Shown here one piece after another: positions 6,070-23,093 of a stretch of 23,093 nucleotides of DNA (its first letter is position 1; the number at the start of each line of letters is the position of its first letter). The stretch comes from a virus. The notes below the pieces were generated by a model that searched no databases, was not told the DNA's origin, and was given only the letters and a program-made list of their open reading frames with translations. Location: the IMG/VR virus record IMGVR_UViG_3300010149_003931, positions 1 to 23,093 of that record; one strand, 5' to 3'. A program made the position numbers and the translations under genes.

Positions 6070-8352
6070 ATGAAGTTTAAGAATACATCTGCCGAGTACC
6101 AATCAACGATTAAGGTAGGCAAGAAGATGGGCTTTGCCCCAGAAGCAGAGAGTTTCCTGATGGACATGATGTCCGATGGTCTGTACTCTGATAAGTTTGG
6201 AAGCATCGTCCGCGAGATTGCCAGTAACTGCATCGACGCTAATGTCGAGGCCGGTAGTACTGACCCTGTAAGCATTTCTGTCACGGCACCTAGCAGCTTC
6301 ACCAATTCTGGTGAGATTGTGTTCCAAGACAGCGGTGTGGGTATCTGCCCTGACCGTATCGAAGACATCTTCACATTGTACTTCGCGTCTACAAAGCGCG
6401 ACGGTAACGATATGATTGGTGGTTTCGGTATTGGCGCTAAGTCACCATTCGCATACACGGACGTGTTCCGCGTAGAGACATGGTGCAACGGTAACAAGTA
6501 CACGTATCTCTTGGAGAAGCGTGGACAGGACCGTACCTGTACACTCCTTGACACAGCTGTCGAGGAAGGTAAGGGTACAAAGATTCGTATCCCTGTTAAA
6601 GATAAGTGGGATTACGAAAAGTTTGTTGATGCTATTAATGAGCAGACAATGCTCATGCGACCTTTGGCCGTAACCCTTAGCGACAACAAGGCATACGAAT
6701 CTACCGAGGTGTTTGAATTCGAGAACTTCTTTGTTTCTCGTGACCGCAATGGCACTTATGCCACTAGCAAAGTTGCATTGGGCAATGTTGTATACCCTGT
6801 TGACAAGGACGTCTCTGGCGAATACTTGGCATCTTGCAGCATTATCCCAAAGCTTGAGATTGGTTCTTGTATGCCTACCATGAGTCGTGAGTCTATCCAG
6901 ATGACCGACGACACTAAGGCGTACATTAAGAAGCGGTATCAAGACTCTTTTGCAGAGTTGCAGGCTATGGCCGATGGACAACGTGGTACTACTACTAGTA
7001 TCTTGGAATTCATCAAGGATGACAGCAGGTTCCTGATGACTCTTGACGGCACTGACGTTGAGATTGACTTGAGGTTTGGCGGATACGGACGGGCTACTAG
7101 CATCAAGAAAGAGAATGTAACTCTTGAAGGATTCGAAGGGGTTGACCGTCACATGGTTCGCTCTTACGCTCAGTCTGTTTGTGAAGTTACTGCTCAGTAT
7201 ACTCAGAAGTACAGCGGAAGCGGCAGCACATGGCGTAATGCCAAGTCGTCTGACAGCTCTCGGTACCACCAGTTTGTTGTAGACAGTAAGACACGTAACT
7301 ACAACGACCCAAAGCCGTTGTTCATCCGGTGGAAAGCTGAAGATAAGCTGACGCCTGCAGACAAGGAGGTCATGGAAGAGATGCTTAAGGAGGAAACAGA
7401 CTACACGTCTATCCACCTTATCCAGCGCAGAGCTGACTTCCCTGTTGGCGGTTATACCAAGATTGCTAACTTCAATGAGCCCGTACCTGTTGAAGGTGCA
7501 GAAGCTCTTCGTGAGTCATTGTGGAACAAGTTCGGCAAGAAGATTCTTGTAGAACTGATGGACCGCACTGACAAGTTTGAAGATTGGCAGGCTAGCCCTG
7601 AGTACATTGCTCAGCGTAAAGAGGCCATGAAAGCGTTGCGTACCAAGACAACAAAGAAGGACCGCTCTAAGACTCAATACCGTTTGCGCGGAATTGGTAG
7701 GAAGGGTGTGTATGACTTTGAGTTGAAAGACTTGCAGCGTATGGTTCGTGGTGCCGTACTTTACATGACTAGCAAAGAGGTTAACGCGCTTAAGGAGGTT
7801 CATAAGGAATCTGATTGCCGTTGGATGGACTTTACTGATTGGGTTTTCGAGACCTTTGAGAAACCAGCTAACATCTCCTTCTTTGCAGTTAGCGAGAAAG
7901 CTGCTAAAGAGTTTAAAGAGATGGGCGTCTTTGTCGACTACGTCTCTTGGGCTAGTAAGCAGGAAGCTCGTAAAGACTCCGACATCATCCAACTGCGTGC
8001 ATTCGTAGAGAGCTTTAGGTCTCAGCCCGGAGCACCTTACTTCATTGAAGCATGTGTGCAGGCTGACGAATCTTTTGCTAAGGTATACAACCAAGTAATG
8101 AAGCTTGACCGTATTGCCCATATGCGCGGTGTAGTACAGACTGGAACCTGCCCTGAGGGTAAGACCACGTTTAGCTACATGAACCACACTGTGTCTATTG
8201 CACCTATTGTTAAGATGCTTGACCTGTACAACAAGCGTGGTGAAGGTGACTTCTTGACCGAAGCTATCTGCAACATGCGTTCGTACGGAGGCCACTACAA
8301 GTCTAAGTGTGAGCAAGCGTTTGCACTCCTTATGCCTAACAAGCAGAAGTAA
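6070..8352 (+). CDS. rIIA: rIIA-like GHKL-ATPase protein
   Basis: 760 residues, close to T4 rIIA (about 725). The N-terminal Bergerat (GHKL) ATP-binding fold is clear: N-box REIASNCIDAN (48-58), G1 box QDSGVGI (86-92), G2 box GGFGIGAKSPF (117-127). The remaining C-terminal two thirds is a charged region without motifs I recognise. In T4, rIIA and rIIB are membrane-associated proteins that allow growth on lambda (rex) lysogens; the biochemical role is not settled. The rIIB-like gene follows after a 47-base gap. No membrane helix or signal peptide is visible. The gene starts after a 49-base non-coding leader lacking a Shine-Dalgarno but containing AACACAA five bases before the ATG. Confidence 0.88.
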   Translation: MKFKNTSAEYQSTIKVGKKMGFAPEAESFLMDMMSDGLYSDKFGSIVREIASNCIDANVEAGSTDPVSISVTAPSSFTNSGEIVFQDSGVGICPDRIEDIFTLYFASTKRDGNDMIGGFGIGAKSPFAYTDVFRVETWCNGNKYTYLLEKRGQDRTCTLLDTAVEEGKGTKIRIPVKDKWDYEKFVDAINEQTMLMRPLAVTLSDNKAYESTEVFEFENFFVSRDRNGTYATSKVALGNVVYPVDKDVSGEYLASCSIIPKLEIGSCMPTMSRESIQMTDDTKAYIKKRYQDSFAELQAMADGQRGTTTSILEFIKDDSRFLMTLDGTDVEIDLRFGGYGRATSIKKENVTLEGFEGVDRHMVRSYAQSVCEVTAQYTQKYSGSGSTWRNAKSSDSSRYHQFVVDSKTRNYNDPKPLFIRWKAEDKLTPADKEVMEEMLKEETDYTSIHLIQRRADFPVGGYTKIANFNEPVPVEGAEALRESLWNKFGKKILVELMDRTDKFEDWQASPEYIAQRKEAMKALRTKTTKKDRSKTQYRLRGIGRKGVYDFELKDLQRMVRGAVLYMTSKEVNALKEVHKESDCRWMDFTDWVFETFEKPANISFFAVSEKAAKEFKEMGVFVDYVSWASKQEARKDSDIIQLRAFVESFRSQPGAPYFIEACVQADESFAKVYNQVMKLDRIAHMRGVVQTGTCPEGKTTFSYMNHTVSIAPIVKMLDLYNKRGEGDFLTEAICNMRSYGGHYKSKCEQAFALLMPNKQK

Positions 8353-8358
8353 TATCTC

Positions 8359-8384
8359 GGGGGCCGGTAACACTGCCGGTCCCC
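8359..8384 (+). other. GC-rich hairpin between rIIA and rIIB
   Basis: A nine-base-pair stem (GGGGGCCGG with CCGGTCCCC, one G-U pair) and an 8-base loop lie six bases after the rIIA stop and 15 bases before the rIIB start. No T-tract follows, so it is not a classical intrinsic terminator; it could stabilise the rIIA mRNA 3' end, attenuate readthrough or tune rIIB translation. Confidence 0.6.
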
Positions 8385-8399
8385 ACAACACAATACATT

Positions 8400-9539
8400 A
8401 TGAGTAACCCAACAATTCACGCCGTACGTCACGGCAATCAAGTTCACGTTATCGTGGACACCGACATGTACCAGCGCAACTTTGACGAGCAGGATTCTGC
8501 TGTTGCATTGTACAACCAAGCACTGACTGCACGTGCTAACCCGACAGGCGTCAACGTAGAGCTCTTGCTCGACGAGGTGCTGCCCGGTCGTAAGCTCGTT
8601 GCAGATAACGTGTTTGCAATCAAGAACGGAGAGTTCTACCTCGCAGGCTACGAGACTGTAGCTATGCCAGAAGAACTGGTCGTACGTATCCAAGCTCACA
8701 TCGAGCAAGGTATTAGCGTGCAACCGCTCGTTAACTTCTGGAAGTTGTTGCTCCTTAACCCGGATGCACAAGCTCGCCAAGACACGTTTAAGTTCATGTC
8801 TGAGTACGACTTCCCTATCACTGACTCTGGTTACTTCATCGGTTACCGTTCTGTTCGTAAGACAGACAAGACCTATGATGCTGTAACTGGCTGGGTACCA
8901 CAGAAGTACGTGGAACTTAAGGCTACTGGTGAGAACCCAGCAGACTACACTGCTATGACCGACCCCGACGGCGGAGAGTTTGTAGCCGTAAAGACAGATG
9001 TAATTACTGACACCAATGGCAACTTCATCTCACCAGAACACGTGCTCGGCAACCTCGAGGAAATGTTCACCAACCAAACGACGGGCGTCACGGATGCCCC
9101 TGAGTATACGGATTGGCACAGCGGTACTACTAGTGTTCGCCTCGGCGGTACGGTTTCTATGGACCGTAGTTCTGTTGACTGTAACCCTGCCAATACTTGC
9201 TCTAGTGGCTTGCATATTGGCGCTCCGGGGTATGTCAAGAACTTCGGAGGCGGGTCGCAAAACGTCCACTTGGCGTGCCTCGTAAACCCGATGAACGTGT
9301 GTGCTATCCCGTCAGACTACTCGTATCAGAAGATGCGTGTCTGCGAGTACTACGCATACGGCATTGTAGACTTGGCTAACGATATGGAGATTCGTACTCC
9401 GTACTTCGAGCTGGACTACAAGACGTTTGAACAGCGCGAGCTGGACAAGCAACTGGAAGAGTACGAAGCAACTATTGAGGACAGCAAGTCTGCAGTAGCT
9501 GCCCGTGCTATCATTAGCGAGCGGCGTGTCTACGCCTGA
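8400..9539 (+). CDS. rIIB: rIIB-like protein
   Basis: 379 residues. The central and C-terminal parts carry the features I associate with phage rIIB-like proteins: FWKLLLLNPD (118-127), a segment ITDSGYFIGYRSVRK, then SMDRSSVDCNPANTCSSGLH with several cysteines, then LVNPMNVCAIPSDY. T4 rIIB (about 312 residues) works with rIIA, and the adjacency here is a strong contextual match. A charged helix ends the protein (residues about 340-375), possibly a partner-binding coil. The start at 8400 has no Shine-Dalgarno but has AACACAA six bases upstream. The last 14 bases overlap a possible small gene starting at GTG 9526. The pair probably affects exclusion systems or host membrane state; this is inferred from T4. 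Confidence 0.85.
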   Translation: MSNPTIHAVRHGNQVHVIVDTDMYQRNFDEQDSAVALYNQALTARANPTGVNVELLLDEVLPGRKLVADNVFAIKNGEFYLAGYETVAMPEELVVRIQAHIEQGISVQPLVNFWKLLLLNPDAQARQDTFKFMSEYDFPITDSGYFIGYRSVRKTDKTYDAVTGWVPQKYVELKATGENPADYTAMTDPDGGEFVAVKTDVITDTNGNFISPEHVLGNLEEMFTNQTTGVTDAPEYTDWHSGTTSVRLGGTVSMDRSSVDCNPANTCSSGLHIGAPGYVKNFGGGSQNVHLACLVNPMNVCAIPSDYSYQKMRVCEYYAYGIVDLANDMEIRTPYFELDYKTFEQRELDKQLEEYEATIEDSKSAVAARAIISERRVYA

Positions 9540-12816: not shown

Positions 12817-12962
12817 TGGATTGTGATTTTTGTGAAGAAGGCAAGTGTACTTGCATCAAGATGAACTCTGAACTAGTCAAGGCTAGTGCAGAGAAAATGG
12901 CAGACGTAAAAGTCTGTGACCTCAAAGGTGACGCAGGAGACTGCGAAGCTTGCGGGGCATAA
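12816..12962 (+). CDS. cysteine-rich 48-residue micro-protein, putative zinc binder
   Basis: The ATG at 12816 overlaps the ThyX stop in the same TAATG arrangement seen at other junctions of this operon; the frame ends at TAA 12960-12962. The 48 residues include seven cysteines: MDCDFCEEGKCTC at the start (C3, C6, C11, C13), C34, and CEAC near the end (C43, C46). Paired C-x2-C motifs at both ends are typical of small zinc-ribbon or rubredoxin-like knuckles. No homologue is recognised. The same bases hold several inverted repeats, so an RNA role is an alternative or additional possibility. It is the last gene of the plus-strand block. Confidence 0.62.
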   Translation: MDCDFCEEGKCTCIKMNSELVKASAEKMADVKVCDLKGDAGDCEACGA

Positions 12963-13004
12963 CTGTTATGGTACTAGGGAGGGGTTCGATTCCCCTCCAC
13001 AGTT
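12961..13004 (+). other. tRNA T-arm/acceptor-like RNA element without D and anticodon arms
   Basis: A 7-bp stem, GGAGGGG (12978-12984) with CCCCTCC (12992-12998), closes a canonical T-loop TTCGATT. Directly adjoining is a 6-bp stem AACTGT (12961-12966) with ACAGTT (12999-13004), so the two helices would stack as the acceptor/T half of a tRNA. Where the D arm, anticodon arm and variable loop should be there are only 11 bases. No complete tRNA can be folded by using upstream sequence. It may be a tRNA relic, a T-arm mimic or an attachment-type fragment. Confidence 0.55.
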
Positions 13005-13038: not shown

Positions 13039-13079
13039 AAAGCAAAGGGGCCCGGCGTAGAGAACCGGGCCCGCTTTCT
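13039..13079. terminator. bidirectional intrinsic terminator between convergent blocks
   Basis: GGGCCCGG (13048-13055) pairs with CCGGGCCC (13065-13072) around a 9-base loop, extended outside by AAAGC (13039-13043) with GCTTT (13073-13077) across a small bulge. T-rich tracts follow on both strands (CTTTCTTT on plus; CCTTTGCTTTCC on minus). It abuts the stop codon of the minus-strand giant gene and follows the last plus-strand elements, so it should end both transcripts. Confidence 0.85.
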
Positions 13080-16000
13080 TTATCCTTCGAACCAGTCGGC
13101 GATATTCTTAGCAGTGCTATACTGCTTCTGCATCTCACCCACTTGCATCAGCCTCATACCGTGGCTAATACCCGGAAGCATCTTACCGGTCAGCGTGCCC
13201 AACTTGGTCTTACCCTTGTTAACTCCTGACTTGTAGTGTTCCATTCCCTCGCCGTGTACAATGTAACCGGCACCATCCTCGACCATCTGACTGACAACCT
13301 TAAGGCCACCGTCTAATCGAGTCATAGCAGCAAACGGATTCTCTGCCATAGAGTTAAACGTTTCGAACAATCCCCATGGAGTGTACGTGTTCATCTCCTG
13401 TGTCAGGCGCTGCGCACGGTTAAGTCCAAGGCCAATCCAGTAGTTGTCTTCGTCTTCCTCGTCAAGCATACCATACATCAAAGCGAGAGCAAGGAAGCCT
13501 GCGATACCAGTGCCGACCTCAGTCAAGGCGCGCATCGCGCCCTTGTACATGTAAGGAGAGTCCTCCTTCATCTGACCAACAGCCTCTTTCATAGCCTTCA
13601 TGTCGCCAAGGTTCTGACCAACAATGCCCAAGAACTGCCACATGCTAGTGTACCAGCCTGCTTCTTGACGCTCGCGCGACTCGTTGTAAGCATCAGTACC
13701 AAAACGCTTCTTGATGTTCATCGGCAACCACCGGCGGAACTGCATAGCAGCCCGTCCCCATGCAACACGTTGCCATGTTCCGGAGTCTTGCTTATTGTAT
13801 GCACCGTGAATGTGGTGGTTCAAAGACTTAGCCTTGTTACGGAAACCTGCAAGGTAGCTGTTGTCAAGGTCAACGATTTCACCGTTACGCTCTACTGTTG
13901 CACCTTCAGGCAACTTAACGTTACCGTCCTCGAACACAAAGCAATCAAACAAGTTAGACTTACTATCATCAGCAAGAGTAACTTCCTGCTTCATCATCAT
14001 AGCAAACGCTGTCTGGTTCTGCATAAGCACCTCACCCATTGTCTGTCCAACAAACAATGCGTTAAGGGCAGTAGAACCTTTGGTCTCACGCTTACCGAAC
14101 GGCATCTCCCGCTGGTCGTCTGCAATGTCAAGCAAGTTAATCAAAGCACTGGTCCGGCTAGTGTAGTTACTACGCTTGCCACTAACGATGTCGTTAGTAA
14201 GTGTAATCACATCGCTGGAAACAATACCCCAAGCGCGCTTGCCGTGCTCTTTGTCGTAGTGCTCACCGCCTGCAGTCTCCAAATGGCGCTGGATGTTACC
14301 GTAGGCAAAGTTGTTGAACCAAGCCATTACGTTAATACCTACGCCCATGAGAGAGGTGTAAGTCTGGAAGCCTGCAACTGCACCGTCGAGACGGCTAGCG
14401 TCTTCCCAGTTATCGCCGAGCATGCCTTCCAACCAGCTGTCAAGTGCAACACTAGTGTTAGTACCTGCAACTTTCTTAGCGCGCCACTGACGTGCACGCT
14501 CACCTTTCTGACCCATAAGGATGACGTGCTTACCGTCAACAACGTCAGACTGGTTAAACACATCACGGGTCATGTACGCGAATGACTCGAGTCCAGCTTT
14601 AGCACTTTCCAAGTGCGCACGCTTAACACTCTCACCCAACATAGAAGCAAAGCTGTCCATGTTCAAACCGGCCATCTCTTCTGCAGTTGCAGGACGAGCG
14701 ATGCGGTCACGAGTGTAGATAGGGTTACCAGAAGAATCAATAAGAACGCGCTCTGCATTCTTCAAGTCCTGAGAACTGTCAACCAAATTCTTAGCGCCTT
14801 GCGTAACGCTTTTCTTTTTATTTTTTAGGCGCTCGAGAATTGAACCAGTCTCGTTAGACGCGCTCCTGATAAATGGAACGTCACCGTCTTCCAAGAACTT
14901 AGAGTCCTTACCAAGTCCGTCCTTCATCTCCTTACGGATGGCAGTCAACGCTGCGGCAGCAGCAGGAGACATTGACTTAAACGCAGGATTCTTTTGGCTA
15001 GCCTTTGGAACTGGACGACCGTCTGCGTTAGCAGGATAGTTGTCGTTCTTGTACTCAGGCTTAACAGTCATGGTAACGAAACGGCTGTGCTCGTTCATTG
15101 GAATGAGCTTACCGTCTACTTCAACTACACCGTTTGCAGCGTCAAACTTACGCAACGTCTCTTCGCCTGCAAGCTTTGCCTCAGCGCGGGCAATGTCAAA
15201 GTTCTGGTCAATGGCAAAGTCGTTAAACTCCAGCATCATCTCCTTCTTAGACTCCAACATTGCATGCATCTCAGCCTCGGCCTGCTCAATAGCAGAGTCG
15301 TAGCTCTTCAATCCATACAACTTACGAGCTGTCTTCAACTCGTTAACCTCTTCAACCTTAGACCGAAGTCCAATAGTTGGGAAGCGGAATGACTTGTAGT
15401 ATGAAGAGTTCTGCGGAAGCTCAGAGTTTTGAGCGTGGAACTTAATCCACTCACCCTCACGGCCAGAGTTCAACATGATGCGCGCTTCGCGTGCACCTTC
15501 AGTATACTTAGCGGTGTGCTCCGTAATAAACTTACCAGTAGCCTTGTCTACAATGTCCTCAAGCTTGACGCCCTCTGCTTTTGCTTTCTTAAGAATGTTA
15601 GCAATGCGAATCTCAGCCTGACGACCTTCGATACGACCTTCCTCAACTGTGTCAGCAATCTGCTTAGCAATGAGCTGCATAACGGGGTTGTTGAATTCCT
15701 TCACACCCAGCGTGCCCATCGTAGCCTTGTTAACGTCAGTCATCATGGCCCGCATCTCTGGGTCATTAGCAAGCTCAAAGATTGTGCTGTAGTTCTCGGG
15801 GTTGTTAGCCCAAGCAATCAGCTTAGGGTTAGTGCTGTTGTTGACCAACTGCTTACTCAGAGTCTCAGCAAGCTGCTCCTTAAGAACAAGCTCTGCGTTA
15901 ATGATACGGTCAAGCTCTTCTTGCAAGTTCTCGTAAGCCTCACGAACCTTTATACTACCACCGGCCTCAGGGTCCATACCCTCAAGCACTGAGCGCAAAG

Positions 16001-19000
16001 TCTCCAAAGACTGCAGCGCAGTGTGTGCCTCTGACAATGCAATTGCTTCAGACTCGCCAATACGGTTAGTAGAGAACCCGTCATTTGTCAGAGCAGACAA
16101 GCGGCTGGTTACAGCACTAGCTGTAAGTAGCTCAGTCTTAGCGACTTGGTGAATAGCGACAAGCTTTGTACCTACGTTAGGCTTCTTAGTTACAAGAGCG
16201 TGCTGACGAGACAGACGTGACGCAGCAACCTCGAACTCGGTAGATGTAAACTTACGAGTCTGATACTGCTGTGCTAGCTCGCCCCACTTTTTCTTAAAGT
16301 CTTCCGCTACACTAGTACCGGTCTTCTTGCGGCGCTGCTGTTGTACAGTGCTTACCTTCTCGCTAAGAGCAGGCAACGGCCCGTCGTCCATCAACATCTC
16401 AGCCAATTGCAAAGTAGCCTTTGGTGTAATGCCGAATACTTTACCGATGGCGCGCAGGATGCGGTTCATGGTAGTACGGAAGCGGTTAGTTTTTGGGTCT
16501 CCTGATTCAAAGATGTCTGTCGCGTCGCGTCCAATTGAAGTAACGAGCGCCTCCATAGCGAGGTCACGTGCATCTAAATCAGAGTACGCTTCTGCTACTT
16601 CGTTCCACAACTTAGAGCCTTTCAACTCTTCAATAGCCTGCTGCACCAGTGGGTGTGTAAACCCGAGTGCCTCAACAAGTACGTGACCGAACTCGTGTGC
16701 TACTGTGTCACGCTGCAACTTGTCTGGGTGCATAGTGATAGTGGCTGCGCCCTTATCAATTACAACCTGACCGTTAACATCTAGCGTGCTGTCAAACTTA
16801 ATAGTTACAGGAATGCCTGCCTTAGCAAAGCGTGCCTGCAAGTGAGCCACTTTAGCCTCAGTGCTGCTGTCCTTACCGTAAGCAAGTCTAGACTCAAACA
16901 TACCAAGCTGCTTACCGGGAACAACAGTCTCTTTAGCTGTAGCCTCAACCACTTTTTGACGAGTACGGCCGGGTTCCACTCTATCAAGTGAAACAGAAAC
17001 GTCTACTGGCTTACCAGCAAACTTTTGACCGTCGTTAGGAGAGTCAACAAGGATGTAGCTGATGACGCCGCTTTCGTCCTCACTGTCTGGGAGAATGATA
17101 CGGTTGTCAGCTGTCTTGTAAGCACCTGCTACTTGGCGATTGAATGCCTCCTCTAACGCTGCGTCAGCGGTTGCACCCGACATGAAAGGAAGGTTAGGGT
17201 TGTGCACCTGTGCCCTGTGGATATCAATAACAGACTTAAAGGAAACTTCCATTCCGTTAATACCAGCTGCTCCAGACTCAGCAGCAAGCTCAGCCTGCAG
17301 TGAGTCGGGCAAGACACGCGTAAAGCGTGACTGGCTCAAGCCGTAACGTGAACGCTGCGCCTCGTATGCGCCGATAGCATCTGCAAACAACATCAAGTCT
17401 GTGTCGCCGCTTTCATACAAGTTGTTCAAAGCTTTCTGAACAGCAATCATTTCCATGTCGTCGTTGACATTCATCAACATGACATTGTCGTAGTACAAGT
17501 CGCCTTGCTTATAAGGAGACGGGTGTACCTGAATCTTGCTAAGTACAAGAGCAAGGTCTTCGTTTGTAGAAAGAAGCTCTGCGTTCTTGTTAAACACACG
17601 CGTCCACTGCTCCAAAGAGTAGTTCTCTTTCAGCTCAGGAAGCTTAGCAACGTTACGCGTCTCGCGTTCGCCCATAGCAGTATACACTGTGCTGTCAGCA
17701 GCAATGGCCAAAGCAGCCTGCTGGCGGATGTACTCATCGTGCATCTGGAAACTCATAGACGCTGCCAGCTTAGAGCCTGAGAACATACGACGCAAGAGCA
17801 AGTAGTTGTCACCAGTTTCGGTAAGAATATCACCGGCTCTCAAGAACATAGAACGAACTGTGCCCTTAGTCTCAAGGCTAAACGGCTGACGAGTACGCGC
17901 GCCGTCACTATTAACGTAGTCCTTCTGTTTGATAATCTGCTCCTTAAGACCAGTGCTGTAGCTTTCAAAGTCTTTCTCCTTCTTGTCGTGGGTCTTCTCA
18001 ACTCCCTTTGCAATGCCTGCACGGTCAATACGCATAGCGTCTCCCTGCTCGTTAAGCGGCTTAACAACGTGGTGTTGGAACTGGCCAATAGCAGAAGTCA
18101 TTAAACCGATAGAAGAGAAACTTGCGTCAAAACCACCAGCGCTTTCCTTACTGCTAAACAAGTTGCGGTTAGCAGGAAGCTCAAGCTTTGTCTTGCCCTT
18201 TATGTCTAGGTTCATTGCTATAGCAATGGAGCCAATAAACTGTTTACCAGTTTCAGAGTCATTCAAGACATTAACAACTGTGTTTTTAGCGGTTCCTTTA
18301 ATTTCAATGTGGCCATCAGCGACCATCTGCATAGGCTTAGACTGGATAATGTCGACAGCAAAGTCAACGTCTCCGTTAGTCATCATTAACAGCGCAGAGA
18401 ACAGGCTAAAGTTGTTGTTGTTAACACCAAGCTTACCATACACGGGGTCTTTAGCGCCGTCCATAGCTGCTGCAACCATCTCAGTGTGCAACCCTACAAG
18501 CTTTTTGCTGACTTTAGATGAGTCAAACGATGCTATCTTAGCAGCGTTGCCCAACTTAAAGTCAACCTTAAACACAAACCCGTTACGGATAAAGTCCTGC
18601 AAGATGAGGTTCTTGTTTGCAGCCTGTCCTTTAAGAGCGATACCCGCGCGGTTGTCACCCAGCATCATAGTGTGCGTAGTAACGGCGTAAGGGTTGTCCT
18701 TAATAAACTGCTGCTGCTCTGCTGAGCGCAAGCCTTTCTTCTCTGCAATGTCTGACAACGTGTCAAAACCTTGAGGAGCCTGAATGCTTTCCAGCATACG
18801 TGGGTCCATGTAGGTCTCACGAATAATGTCGTACAACTCGTTTGACTTCTTAGCAAGCTTAGTCTTAGCGTTAGTGTCACGCCACTGGAACACAAGCTTA
18901 TCGACGTCAAAGTCAGAACCCATCTGAGTTACAAACTCGTCAGGTACAATAGCACCGTCTTGACCTTCTGGCAAGAACTCTACAACCTCAACCATAGAGC

Positions 19001-22000
19001 CAGAGTTAGGTGCCTCTGAAGGAATACGTACACAGAACATCTCTAAGAGCTCTGGGTGTGTAGACTTAATCTCCGCAAAAGACATGTCAGCAATGCGGTC
19101 GCCTTTGTAAGTCTTAGGAAGGTAGTCGCGGTTAACAACAATCTGTGCAGGCGCAACCTTACCGTCGACTAGGCGCATGCCTTTCAACCTATTCTTACGT
19201 GTGCTGTAGAACTGTGAGCTAATCTGTACCTGTGTACCACCGAAGATGCGAACCTGCTTAGCCTCGTTCTCAATAGAAGAGAACAAAGCAGTACGCACTG
19301 CGCCGATAACTGTAGGGCCAGTAAAGTTGCCCTGTTGTACTTGGTCAAGAACGTAAGCAGGAACATCCTGAGCCTCTAGCTTCTCTAGAATAAAATCACG
19401 GAACGCCTCCTTATCAACGTTACCAGTTTCGTTTTCAAACTGCTTAAAGAGGTTGTCAGCTTGAGTGCTGTAGATGCTGTCAAGCGCTTTCATAAACTTG
19501 TCACGAGCAGCAGCACCTTCTTCACCACGATTCAAGACACCGTGCGAGATAGCAATACGCTCCATCTGCGACATCATCTTGTTAGTGCTGTCGTCATGCC
19601 AGTGGTCTGTAACGTGAACCTGCTTACCGTAGCCGTCCATAGGCAACGTGTGCACGTTCTCCTCACTAAACCCAATCACTTTAAACTCCCCAGTCTCTGG
19701 GTCAATAAGCTCAACCTCGCCCTTAGTGTTACCCACTTTGTGCGCTGTGCCCATTTGCACTTGGTCAATCTTATTCTTAGAGTCGTTCATAAACGCAGCT
19801 AGCTTACCGAAGTCGCCGGGCATTGCCTCGAACACAGGAATAATAGAGTTCTTAATCTGCTGTGACTGCAACATGCCGTCAGCTGCAATAGTACGTGTGT
19901 AGTAGAAAGGCTTGTACGGGCGGAAAAGCTTCTGCTTCTCAGAGGCAGAAAGAGCCTCACCTTTACGCGCTTTGTCCAACGCAGTCTGCAACTCTGGAGT
20001 CATGTCACCATGCTCAAGCAAAACAGTTTCGTAGAAGTCAAGCGTGACGTAAGTCTGCGCGTCTGCAATCTCTACGCCGCCGTACTGCTTATTACCATCA
20101 GCATCAATAAACTTAGCCAGCTCTGCTGTTCCGCCGTTAGCTGGGTCAGTTAGGTCAAACCTAACATCTTTCATAGTGACGCTACGGAAGTGGGTCTTCT
20201 TAGTAACGCCAGCGTTTACAACAGCAGGAGAAGCAATGTGCTTGTGACGCTTCTGCATGTCGGTAGTGTTACCGTCTGCCTTCTGCTTGAACTCGTTGGC
20301 TGTACCAGCCAGAGCAATAGACGTAGATGCGTTACTAACATAGCCAGTTACTGTAAGCTGCTTAGCTGCCTGCTCAAGACTTAGACCTGTGCTGCTGGAC
20401 TCATGTGCGTTGATAAACGAAGTCTGCTCCATAAGACTGGTAGCTTCGTTCATTAACTGCTCAAGCAAAATCTCAGCAGCTTTGTCCAGCTCGCTAGACA
20501 GCTGCGCTGAGGTCGTGATAGTAAAGAAGTCTCCGTCTGTAGTAGAGAACTTAGAACGCATGTACGCGTTCACAGCTGGGTTGCTAAAGCGGCCTTTACG
20601 ATGGCGAAGCTCAGTAACCTCTGCAAAGATGATACCCTTCAAGGCCGTAAGCGCTTTAGTCTTTCCGGCGTCTGTGCTTGGATTAAACACTACAGCTGGT
20701 ACAATGTAGCTGTTACCTGCATCAGACAATGTAGTTACAGGGTACATAGAACCCAAACCTCGCACACCGTTAAGGATAGACATTTGATACTCATACGTCT
20801 GCTGGTCAGTCATGTTAGTGTAGGTAGTACCTGCACCTGCTGACATACCTCCATACCGGCGAGTACCCATACGGCGAGCCGCTTGGATGTTAAAGTCACC
20901 GTTCTTACGACCGTTAAAGATAAGACGACCGTAGTTTGTGACGTACATACGTGGGTCGGCAAACACCTCTTCACGAATCCTAGTCTCGTACATTTGGTCG
21001 GTCTCTCCATCCCGCTGCTCGAACTGGTTAAACCACTTACCGATAAAGCTAGGCACTTGCTTGCTAAAGATACGAGTACCTTCAACGTTAGTAAGTGTAG
21101 AAGAGACTGCACCTCTGTCGTTATCTGCAAAGTAAGCAGACAACTTCTCAATCATGTCAACAAAGTTAGCCTGACGGCTGTCCTGCGTGTCATCGTTTGC
21201 AGACTGCAAAGCTTTAAATGCTTTTACTGCACCCTCTGCATACGTAAACAAGTTGTTAAGGTTCTGCTCTCCTGCTTCTGCTGCCAGCTCAAGACTGGTT
21301 TCAAAGGCTGCACTGTCAATAGTGCTAAAGCCCATGGCTGTAAGAGCGGCTCCAAGCTTCTTAACTTTCTGCTCTTGTGAGAGGAAGTCGTCATTCTTAA
21401 TAGCTACAATACGAGCTGCCCACTTGTCAAGGTTTGGAATGTCTGCAAGGGCGGCAGCAACAGTAGCTTGGTTGCGCATAGCCAAAGTACGTGTAAACGT
21501 TTCTGAAAGTTCTGCCCGTCCTTTGTTGGCTGACACTTCTTCAGAACCAGTACGCTTCATACCTGTAAAGAACTGCGCCAAAGTCTCAACGCTCTGGTCT
21601 TGCAAGTTCATAGCCAAGAGCTTAAACTCTGGGTACACCTCACCCATTGTCATCAGACGTGCAAGCATGTCCTGTGGGGTGGCTGCACTAGCAAGCTTCT
21701 GTGACAAGAACGGGAAGTTCAAATCAACGTTCATACCACGAGGCAAGCCAAAGAAAGACGAGTGTGCTGTCTTACCAGACAACTCGTTAACTGCGTCAAT
21801 AGCTTCAGCCAGCTTTTCGTGTGCCTGCTCTAATGCTTTATCGTTGTTATTCTCCTTAGCAGTTTTAACTTCAAGCATAGCCAACTCAGCCGTAGCCATA
21901 GCCTGCTTAATCTTGCTGCTATTCTTCATAGTAGCACGCGTAATCTGCGGAGTAGCTTCAATCAAATCGCGAACAGTCTGTGACAGGCTGTCCTTCGGAT

Positions 22001-23093
22001 TCATCTTCTGGAACTTCTTCTCGTCGTACTGCTCAGTTGCGTTAGTACCAACAGTGTGCTCGTTAGAAATCAAGTCCTCTACGTAAGACTGGAACTTGCT
22101 GTCCTTAGAGAAGTGCTCAATAACTGCAGCTCTACGCTGGCCTTCAAACAAGTTAGCCAAGTTCTGGCGAGCCATAGAGTCTGCAGGCATAACAGCCGCT
22201 GCATCATCAGCTGCCATACGCATTGTGCCATCCATAGTAAGTCCAATCAGCTCGCCTGTAAGCGCCTGCTTGCGGGACATTCCGGGATACTTATTTTCAA
22301 AGTCTTCTCTAGAGAGCTCGCGGATTTCATTAAACCTAGCAAAGCTTGGAGATTTCATAGCTGTACCCATGCGGAACTCCTCGCCTACATACCGGCGGAG
22401 AACACCTTGCAGCTCCTCAATAACAACTGCGTTGTATTCAGGTGCATATGGAATAGCTTTCATGAAACGAGTTGTGAAGTCGTTAGTACGTGGGGTCATG
22501 TTGCTAAACGTACCACGGTTCATACCTTGATACACGCGAGTGCTTGCAAGGTTACCACGGACCAAAGCTCCAATCAACTCCATAAGCTCTGAGAAGAACC
22601 TACGAACAACAGACTTGTCTTTGTTAGACAGTCCGTCTGTAAGCATGTACTCACGGAACTCTTCAGCCAACTCTTCTTCCAGCTGCTCTTCGTTCTTGTT
22701 CGGGTACTTCTTACGCATTTCTGCAAGCACCTTCTCCTGACGCTTAGGGTCAAGGAACATGTGGAACACAGCGTGGAACGCTTCGTGGTACTCTGTACCT
22801 ACAACTGCAAGGTTAGACACCTCAACAGCACCTGCCTCAAAGATACCATAGGCAGTAGTTCCACCACGTTGAATCATACCCTTGACCCGCTTAAACGGAA
22901 CGTTAGGCATGTTCTTAGCCCACCACTCTTCAGCAACCTTCATGTCAAGAGGTGTAGCCTTCTCACCGTTGGCTGCTCCCTCTGCACGCTCGACACTGAG
23001 GAAGCGTCTGCGGTTAGTGCGGTTCTCTTTTCTAAACCTACGAATCTCCTGACGGCGTGCCTCAGCTGCAGCCTCATCAATGATGGGCTTGTA
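13080..23093 (-). CDS. giant multidomain protein: virion RNA polymerase-like with two zincin motifs, 5' end cut by window
   Basis: Open from the right edge to TAA at 13080-13082: 3337 visible residues, N-terminus outside (the Met at 22943 is internal; 50 in-frame residues precede it). Numbering from the edge: zincin-like motif 1 YHEAFH (H103, H107; E144/E145 downstream); RNA polymerase active-site motif GSDFDVDKL (D1394, D1396, D1398) with VRIPSE starting 39 residues earlier, as in the catalytic double-psi barrel of beta'-type polymerases; zincin motif 2 HEFGH (2133-2137, E2181 downstream); a long Glu/Lys/Ala-rich helical region about 2350-2640; hydrophobic segments about 2903-2934 and 3184-3211; and WGRAAMQFRRWLP near 3110. 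crAss-like phages package such a polymerase and eject it to transcribe early genes. Polymerase identity is strongly suggested, not proven; the zincins may be degenerate. Confidence 0.85.
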   Translation of the reverse strand, partial: YKPIIDEAAAEARRQEIRRFRKENRTNRRRFLSVERAEGAANGEKATPLDMKVAEEWWAKNMPNVPFKRVKGMIQRGGTTAYGIFEAGAVEVSNLAVVGTEYHEAFHAVFHMFLDPKRQEKVLAEMRKKYPNKNEEQLEEELAEEFREYMLTDGLSNKDKSVVRRFFSELMELIGALVRGNLASTRVYQGMNRGTFSNMTPRTNDFTTRFMKAIPYAPEYNAVVIEELQGVLRRYVGEEFRMGTAMKSPSFARFNEIRELSREDFENKYPGMSRKQALTGELIGLTMDGTMRMAADDAAAVMPADSMARQNLANLFEGQRRAAVIEHFSKDSKFQSYVEDLISNEHTVGTNATEQYDEKKFQKMNPKDSLSQTVRDLIEATPQITRATMKNSSKIKQAMATAELAMLEVKTAKENNNDKALEQAHEKLAEAIDAVNELSGKTAHSSFFGLPRGMNVDLNFPFLSQKLASAATPQDMLARLMTMGEVYPEFKLLAMNLQDQSVETLAQFFTGMKRTGSEEVSANKGRAELSETFTRTLAMRNQATVAAALADIPNLDKWAARIVAIKNDDFLSQEQKVKKLGAALTAMGFSTIDSAAFETSLELAAEAGEQNLNNLFTYAEGAVKAFKALQSANDDTQDSRQANFVDMIEKLSAYFADNDRGAVSSTLTNVEGTRIFSKQVPSFIGKWFNQFEQRDGETDQMYETRIREEVFADPRMYVTNYGRLIFNGRKNGDFNIQAARRMGTRRYGGMSAGAGTTYTNMTDQQTYEYQMSILNGVRGLGSMYPVTTLSDAGNSYIVPAVVFNPSTDAGKTKALTALKGIIFAEVTELRHRKGRFSNPAVNAYMRSKFSTTDGDFFTITTSAQLSSELDKAAEILLEQLMNEATSLMEQTSFINAHESSSTGLSLEQAAKQLTVTGYVSNASTSIALAGTANEFKQKADGNTTDMQKRHKHIASPAVVNAGVTKKTHFRSVTMKDVRFDLTDPANGGTAELAKFIDADGNKQYGGVEIADAQTYVTLDFYETVLLEHGDMTPELQTALDKARKGEALSASEKQKLFRPYKPFYYTRTIAADGMLQSQQIKNSIIPVFEAMPGDFGKLAAFMNDSKNKIDQVQMGTAHKVGNTKGEVELIDPETGEFKVIGFSEENVHTLPMDGYGKQVHVTDHWHDDSTNKMMSQMERIAISHGVLNRGEEGAAARDKFMKALDSIYSTQADNLFKQFENETGNVDKEAFRDFILEKLEAQDVPAYVLDQVQQGNFTGPTVIGAVRTALFSSIENEAKQVRIFGGTQVQISSQFYSTRKNRLKGMRLVDGKVAPAQIVVNRDYLPKTYKGDRIADMSFAEIKSTHPELLEMFCVRIPSEAPNSGSMVEVVEFLPEGQDGAIVPDEFVTQMGSDFDVDKLVFQWRDTNAKTKLAKKSNELYDIIRETYMDPRMLESIQAPQGFDTLSDIAEKKGLRSAEQQQFIKDNPYAVTTHTMMLGDNRAGIALKGQAANKNLILQDFIRNGFVFKVDFKLGNAAKIASFDSSKVSKKLVGLHTEMVAAAMDGAKDPVYGKLGVNNNNFSLFSALLMMTNGDVDFAVDIIQSKPMQMVADGHIEIKGTAKNTVVNVLNDSETGKQFIGSIAIAMNLDIKGKTKLELPANRNLFSSKESAGGFDASFSSIGLMTSAIGQFQHHVVKPLNEQGDAMRIDRAGIAKGVEKTHDKKEKDFESYSTGLKEQIIKQKDYVNSDGARTRQPFSLETKGTVRSMFLRAGDILTETGDNYLLLRRMFSGSKLAASMSFQMHDEYIRQQAALAIAADSTVYTAMGERETRNVAKLPELKENYSLEQWTRVFNKNAELLSTNEDLALVLSKIQVHPSPYKQGDLYYDNVMLMNVNDDMEMIAVQKALNNLYESGDTDLMLFADAIGAYEAQRSRYGLSQSRFTRVLPDSLQAELAAESGAAGINGMEVSFKSVIDIHRAQVHNPNLPFMSGATADAALEEAFNRQVAGAYKTADNRIILPDSEDESGVISYILVDSPNDGQKFAGKPVDVSVSLDRVEPGRTRQKVVEATAKETVVPGKQLGMFESRLAYGKDSSTEAKVAHLQARFAKAGIPVTIKFDSTLDVNGQVVIDKGAATITMHPDKLQRDTVAHEFGHVLVEALGFTHPLVQQAIEELKGSKLWNEVAEAYSDLDARDLAMEALVTSIGRDATDIFESGDPKTNRFRTTMNRILRAIGKVFGITPKATLQLAEMLMDDGPLPALSEKVSTVQQQRRKKTGTSVAEDFKKKWGELAQQYQTRKFTSTEFEVAASRLSRQHALVTKKPNVGTKLVAIHQVAKTELLTASAVTSRLSALTNDGFSTNRIGESEAIALSEAHTALQSLETLRSVLEGMDPEAGGSIKVREAYENLQEELDRIINAELVLKEQLAETLSKQLVNNSTNPKLIAWANNPENYSTIFELANDPEMRAMMTDVNKATMGTLGVKEFNNPVMQLIAKQIADTVEEGRIEGRQAEIRIANILKKAKAEGVKLEDIVDKATGKFITEHTAKYTEGAREARIMLNSGREGEWIKFHAQNSELPQNSSYYKSFRFPTIGLRSKVEEVNELKTARKLYGLKSYDSAIEQAEAEMHAMLESKKEMMLEFNDFAIDQNFDIARAEAKLAGEETLRKFDAANGVVEVDGKLIPMNEHSRFVTMTVKPEYKNDNYPANADGRPVPKASQKNPAFKSMSPAAAAALTAIRKEMKDGLGKDSKFLEDGDVPFIRSASNETGSILERLKNKKKSVTQGAKNLVDSSQDLKNAERVLIDSSGNPIYTRDRIARPATAEEMAGLNMDSFASMLGESVKRAHLESAKAGLESFAYMTRDVFNQSDVVDGKHVILMGQKGERARQWRAKKVAGTNTSVALDSWLEGMLGDNWEDASRLDGAVAGFQTYTSLMGVGINVMAWFNNFAYGNIQRHLETAGGEHYDKEHGKRAWGIVSSDVITLTNDIVSGKRSNYTSRTSALINLLDIADDQREMPFGKRETKGSTALNALFVGQTMGEVLMQNQTAFAMMMKQEVTLADDSKSNLFDCFVFEDGNVKLPEGATVERNGEIVDLDNSYLAGFRNKAKSLNHHIHGAYNKQDSGTWQRVAWGRAAMQFRRWLPMNIKKRFGTDAYNESRERQEAGWYTSMWQFLGIVGQNLGDMKAMKEAVGQMKEDSPYMYKGAMRALTEVGTGIAGFLALALMYGMLDEEDEDNYWIGLGLNRAQRLTQEMNTYTPWGLFETFNSMAENPFAAMTRLDGGLKVVSQMVEDGAGYIVHGEGMEHYKSGVNKGKTKLGTLTGKMLPGISHGMRLMQVGEMQKQYSTAKNIADWFEG

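Follow-up and report, generated by a model that had tools for sequence, protein, structure and literature searches.

Giant RNA polymerases (RNAPs) carried in the virion are a described hallmark of crAss-like phages, and a review has put the upper size of crAss RNAP genes at about 6,000 amino acids (aa) (PMC10136315). Phage phi14:2 carries its RNAP in the virion, and this enzyme transcribes early genes (PMC7886860); it is active in vitro and has been linked to rifampicin-resistant early transcription (PMC10136315). Virions of crAss001 contain three RNAP-associated cargo proteins (PMC10172136). Here we describe a giant gene on the minus strand of the IMG/VR virus record IMGVR_UViG_3300010149_003931, positions 1 to 23,093, the whole of which we call the window. 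An earlier note, made from the letters alone, had proposed that the protein holds a two-barrel RNAP active site. We find that its DFDVD segment is very probably the catalytic loop of a single-chain, two-barrel, DNA-dependent RNAP of the crAss-like type, homologous to phi14:2 gp66 and, by analogy, packed in the virion as an early transcriber. Because giant virion RNAPs have already been described in these phages, the class is known, and the window polymerase is a divergent addition to it, not a new class.

The minus-strand frame at 13080-23093 runs for 3,337 codons without a stop and extends beyond the window edge. Judging from full-length relatives, the window protein is expected to be the C-terminal 3,337 aa of a chain of ~4,700-5,300 aa, with its N-terminus beyond the window. 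The parts that concern the polymerase are these:

13080..23093, minus strand: giant open reading frame (ORF); its full-length relatives L001, L009 and L017 have 4,982, 4,656 and 5,290 aa.
17241..20393, minus strand: RNA polymerase core (aa 901-1951), the stretch given to structure prediction, with an AlphaFold2 predicted local distance difference test (pLDDT) score of 81 and a predicted template modelling (pTM) score of 0.81.
19614..20081, minus strand: probable second double-psi beta-barrel (DPBB-B) region with K1061 (YKPF, 19913-19911), K1081 (QIKNS, 19853-19851) and K1119 (AHKVG, 19739-19737), aligned to gp66 about 955-1090.
18849..19256, minus strand: probable DPBB-A (aa 1280-1415), which holds RIP and DFDVD; model residues 382-540 match AR9 and cellular beta' chains.
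19020..19028, minus strand: R-x-P motif RIP (aa 1356-1358).
18897..18920, minus strand: GSDFDVDK, the predicted metal-binding catalytic loop (aa 1392-1399), aligned to GSDFDIDK of gp66 and conserved in homologues.
18585..18692, minus strand: conserved segment with DNRAGIALKGQAANKN after DPBB-A, a candidate bridge-helix or trigger region by its position; two glycines are kept in 55/71 and 63/71 homologues.
18435..18470, minus strand: AAMDGAKDPVYG, a second conserved block after DPBB-A (Asp in 68/70, Lys in 54/70).

The match to gp66 was found at the levels of sequence, profile and fold. BLASTP of the window core against gp66 gave an E value of 6e-9, with GSDFDIDK of gp66 aligned onto DFDVD; the DFDID that the earlier note had cited for gp66 is indeed present. 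When a profile of the window family was compared with gp66 by hhalign, the probability was 98.1% (E 1.4e-13) over 438 columns that cover both barrel regions and end on DFDVD/DFDID, although local identity to gp66 is only about 16-27%. The gp66 record is annotated as a catalytic RNAP subunit from tandem mass spectrometry (MS/MS) proteomics.

AlphaFold2 was run on the core without templates. A Foldseek search of the PDB with this model returned 6VR4, the solved structure of gp66, at E 1.8e-24 and as the sole match below 0.001. VIA-align superposed the model on 6VR4 with a Z of 18.8 over 932 residues, across a range that spans both barrels, and this points to two double-psi beta-barrels in the window protein. 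The next matches were RDR2 (Z 14.0), QDE-1 (12.7) and P74 gp62 (9.4), followed by AR9 and cellular beta' at about 8; the last two were confined to model residues about 380-650. Since 6VR4 is later than the training set of the original AlphaFold2 weights, its match is unlikely to be simple recall. Among predicted viral structures 56 models matched below 0.001, and the named ones were largely from crAss-like phages. Thus, the profile similarity and the fold, which the earlier note had named as checks, both came out in favour of its two-barrel reading. The assignment of DPBB-B, made by position relative to gp66, is probable.

The motif itself was read correctly in the earlier note: GSDFDVDK lies at 18920-18897 and the R-x-P at 19028-19020, with 38 residues from the R of RIP to the first aspartate. 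The note also pointed to a possible downstream active-site segment at about 18620-18670. DNRAGIALKG is in fact part of a conserved block after DPBB-A, within DNRAGIALKGQAANKN (aa 1480-1495, minus strand), which lies at 18656-18609; its role is that of a candidate.

Conservation was followed from a scan with the motif block, which found 265 related viral stretches; 80 of these were kept. The conservation alignment has 73 rows, and 72 of them reach the R-x-P and DFDVD positions. In these, R, P, G, S, D, F, D, D and K are invariant (72/72). The search patterns for the loci included SDFDVDK, so that the invariance of this stretch was partly selected for; neither R-x-P nor the lysines were in the patterns used to gather the stretches. 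Upstream, K1061 is found in 60/63 homologues, K1081 in 63/63 and K1119 in 62/63. The R-x-P stands 38 or 39 residues before the first aspartate in nearly all homologues. The family-wide invariants, namely R-x-P, GSDFDxDK and the three lysines, are mutable targets. Two variants of the loop were seen, DFDND in L017 (10337) and LDYDID in the RNAP of Flavobacterium phage Fpv3 (L115); the fourth position and even the Phe are changeable.

Wider searches led to the same group of phages. The motif region, searched by tblastn against 50,697 phage records, found crAss-like phages, including a Rudgehvirus 'putative RNAP catalytic subunit'. With the 1,051-aa core as query 119 phage records were matched, and the matches listed were from crAss-like, Flavobacterium or Cellulophaga phages, many annotated as RNA polymerase. 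The closest relatives found are the IMG/VR contigs L001-L003, at ~45% identity; L009 is more distant. No T7-like single-subunit polymerase fold (N4-type, Schitoviridae) was among the listed fold or sequence matches, where the significant match was a two-barrel enzyme. At the DNA level no public phage matched the window. A single pattern scan of bacterial and archaeal genome contigs confirmed no homologue there, which is not proof of absence.

Three further observations concern these relatives. The giant genes of L001 and L002 are nearly identical and come from different samples, so the lineage recurs across datasets. In public records (H8-H14) several crAss RNAP giants are annotated as 'nuclear pore complex protein-like', 'DNA helicase' or 'exonuclease V', and searches by name miss them because of such labels. 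Read with the standard code, the matched stretch of the cr53_1 RNAP frame (L010, ~15592) contains 4 TAG codons that break it, which fits the TAG recoding described in crAss-like phages.

The genes around the giant ORF were compared with those of its relatives. The plus-strand half of the window encodes a helicase, a DnaB-like helicase, Sak4, a primase, RIIA, RIIB, a DnaA-C-like protein, a PDDEXK exonuclease, a DUF3310 protein and ThyX. An opposite-strand gene run likewise follows the giant gene in G001 and G005, and that of L009 includes relatives of the window exonuclease and RIIB (read by eye). ThyX, PDDEXK nucleases and giant RNAPs have all been described from crAss phages (PMC7886860). In relatives G001, G002, G003 and G005 the giant ORF stands at the end of a structural gene run; this upstream side is cut off in the window. 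In G002 and G003, TerL, portal and major head protein match PHROGs families (E 4e-92 to 4e-143), and a phi14:2-like portal, head protein, tail tube and IHF are present. In an RNAP tree built on a very divergent alignment, the window, L001, L003, L009 and L017 form one clade with support of 100; by the same tree this clade is near the sampled Intestiviridae, Steigviridae and Suoliviridae and inside none of them.

The identity of the polymerase appears well founded on homology, the predicted fold, the conservation of motif and lysines, and the crAss-like genomes of relatives. Several results weigh against it. The whole giant protein matched nothing above chance in Pfam and PHROGs, and phmmer and a 3-row profile found only chance matches among PDB sequences; as these searches stayed at chance level, homology was drawn from crAss genomes and fold. 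The superposition on 6VR4 is loose, with a root-mean-square deviation of 4.9 Å across the 932 residues. Finally, the window covers a 23 kb fragment that contains no structural genes, and its crAss-like membership would follow from relatives about 45% identical in the polymerase.

If DFDVD and R-x-P were a chance motif in a large polyvalent or structural protein, the three aspartates would need little explanation, because a bare DxDxD is expected 0.61 times per shuffled protein of the same composition; the three aspartates alone are therefore a weak signal. DFDxD was present in 2.4% of shuffles of the giant protein, but R-x-P 35-42 residues before DFDxD occurred in 0/3,000, and the motif is invariant in the 72 homologues. 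Stronger than any shuffle test is the conservation of aa 1351-1400, the giant protein's most conserved 50-residue block (36/50 identical in the window and two relatives), together with the constant R-x-P spacing. The fold and profile matches to gp66 and 6VR4 refute the chance motif, and we give it practically no weight. A decayed polymerase, with the fold kept and catalysis lost, is very improbable. Catalysis by the window polymerase is argued by analogy, which leaves room for decay, but the residues of the catalytic site are retained by the window protein and every aligned relative although identity to the window drops to 14-50%, and the frame is open throughout.

The protein might also have kept the two-barrel fold but be mainly a late-made, non-virion polymerase, or have some other nucleic-acid role, with no part in early transcription. 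Non-virion two-barrel RNAPs exist in some phages (P23-45 gp64; PMC10770324), and the packaging of the window protein, too, is argued by analogy. But the giant ORF ends the structural run in relatives, as do gp65, gp66 and gp67 of phi14:2 with their MS/MS-based virion annotation, and its C-terminus matches gp65. We consider a late or non-virion role unlikely. Most likely, by analogy, the window protein does as the phi14:2 enzyme does and is a virion RNAP for early transcription.

We propose a model for this virion polymerase in which the three aspartates on DPBB-A would hold the catalytic magnesium and face the conserved DPBB-B lysines of the same chain. The polymerase forms the middle of the chain, flanked by two zinc-peptidase-like regions, with the gp65 counterpart at the C-terminus. 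Judging from phi14:2 and crAss001, the chain would be packed in the virion, ejected with the DNA and refolded in the cell, where it may transcribe the early and replication genes on the window's opposite strand. We infer packaging, ejection, activity and the choice of transcribed genes from these two phages.

The rest of the chain, and the sequence past its end, contain the following features:

22494..22946, minus strand: peptidase-like region 1, HEAFH (aa 103-107; 22787-22773), N-terminal to the polymerase; all 9 aligned homologues keep both His and the Glu of HExxH and one Glu further downstream.
20394..22076, minus strand: helical stretch (aa 340-900) between peptidase-like region 1 and the polymerase core, conserved only within the lineage and modelled with low confidence.
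16419..16811, minus strand: peptidase-like region 2, HEFGH (aa 2133-2137; 16697-16683), C-terminal to the polymerase; HExxH is kept in all five giants.
13152..14765, minus strand: C-terminal region (aa 2777-3314) homologous to phi14:2 gp65, a virion 'RNA polymerase associated protein' (BLASTP E 1.8e-15).
13048..13072, minus strand: strong intrinsic-terminator-like hairpin directly past the giant ORF stop, with a 9-bp stem of which 8 pairs are G-C.

The HEAFH region has no Pfam match but matches the giant protein of cr53_1 (E 2e-5), which has HEAWH. For aa 20-910, AlphaFold2 gave a low-quality model (pLDDT 63, pTM 0.35) that found no PDB match, and BLASTP of this part against gp66 gave nothing significant; the helical stretch may correspond to the N-terminal part of gp66. 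Relatives of the HEFGH region sit in separate proteins of L057 and L091, and phi14:2 gp65 carries HEIMH at aa 245. A further match of the C-terminal region is to the same end of the Rudgehvirus RNAP protein (E 2.7e-25), and the N-termini of L003 and L009 match a Rudgehvirus ZnMc_tr protein (E 2e-33 and 1e-30).

In L001, L009 and L017 the N-terminal region, HEAFH, polymerase, HEFGH and C-terminal region stand on one ORF of 4,656-5,290 aa, whereas the named crAss-like phages examined spread these parts over two or more genes. Single ORFs with an RNAP and a gp65-like C-terminus were also found in L046, L067 and L088. By sequence comparison, then, parts that are split over several large proteins in other crAss-like phages are joined in one chain in the window lineage. 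A PDDEXK-like region was matched in the giants of L001, L003 and L017, of which L003 ends before the C-terminus. This weak PD-(D/E)XK nuclease match falls in the part of the giant that lies beyond the window (L001 aa 850-1130; L003 aa 882-1130, PDDEXK_1, E 0.0045 in L003), a feature that some crAss transcription proteins are reported to have.

The HExxH regions may cleave the chain, may work at the ejection stage, or may have another role. It is conceivable, if rather doubtful, that the crAss transcription cargo is made as one chain and that both HExxH regions cut it after assembly or ejection, freeing a gp66-like polymerase. If true, the chain would be a self-processing polyprotein polymerase within a phage virion.

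Some features of the region stand apart from the polymerase. The GC-rich hairpin past the giant ORF stop has near-symmetric arms at 13039-13055/13065-13081, and further inverted repeats lie at 12973-13003 and 12901-12916; these repeats fall in the gap where the replication operon and the giant-gene operon converge. Genes for RIIA-like (HATPase) and RIIB-like proteins occupy 6070-9539 in the replication block; RIIB also matches cr116_1 and many phages of other hosts and is uninformative on the host. No Shine-Dalgarno enrichment was found in the window or most relatives, which is compatible with a Bacteroidota host but no demonstration of one.

With the window, the crAss-like virion RNAPs gain a deep uncultured lineage whose one-chain architecture is extreme. 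The eukaryotic RNA interference polymerases QDE-1 and RDR2 have the same single-chain two-barrel fold (VIA Z about 11-14) but differ in template use and biology, and no sequence match between them and the window protein was found. Thermus phage P23-45 gp96 is also a two-barrel RNAP in a giant virion protein with a metallopeptidase domain (PMC10770324), and gp64-type Thermus-phage structures reach a VIA Z of 9.3-9.4 to the core model; gp96, however, is fused to the tape measure protein of a long-tailed phage and has a DFDGD motif. In Bacteroides phage crAss001 (Steigviridae), gp50 has the identical GSDFDVDK loop and has been detected in virions (PMC10172136), but its frame is 2,416 aa long and is followed by a separate subunit, gp49. 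Among the Intestiviridae, Rudgehvirus jaberico has an RNAP core and a gp65-like C-terminus on one chain, and the ZnMc_tr protein encoded upstream of it matches the N-terminus of the giant in the window's relatives; CrAssphage LMMB likewise has annotated RNAP catalytic subunit fusion proteins. These fusions take two ORFs, whereas the window lineage has one. The closest likeness is to phi14:2 gp66 (PDB 6VR4), which is also a single chain with barrel B before barrel A, GSDFD[IV]DK and R-x-P 38-39 residues upstream; the common fold extends over 932 residues and its gene likewise follows structural genes. In phi14:2, however, gp66 (2,180 aa) and its neighbours gp65 and gp67 are distinct proteins, whereas the window chain carries the gp65 counterpart and the peptidase-like regions on the polymerase chain itself.

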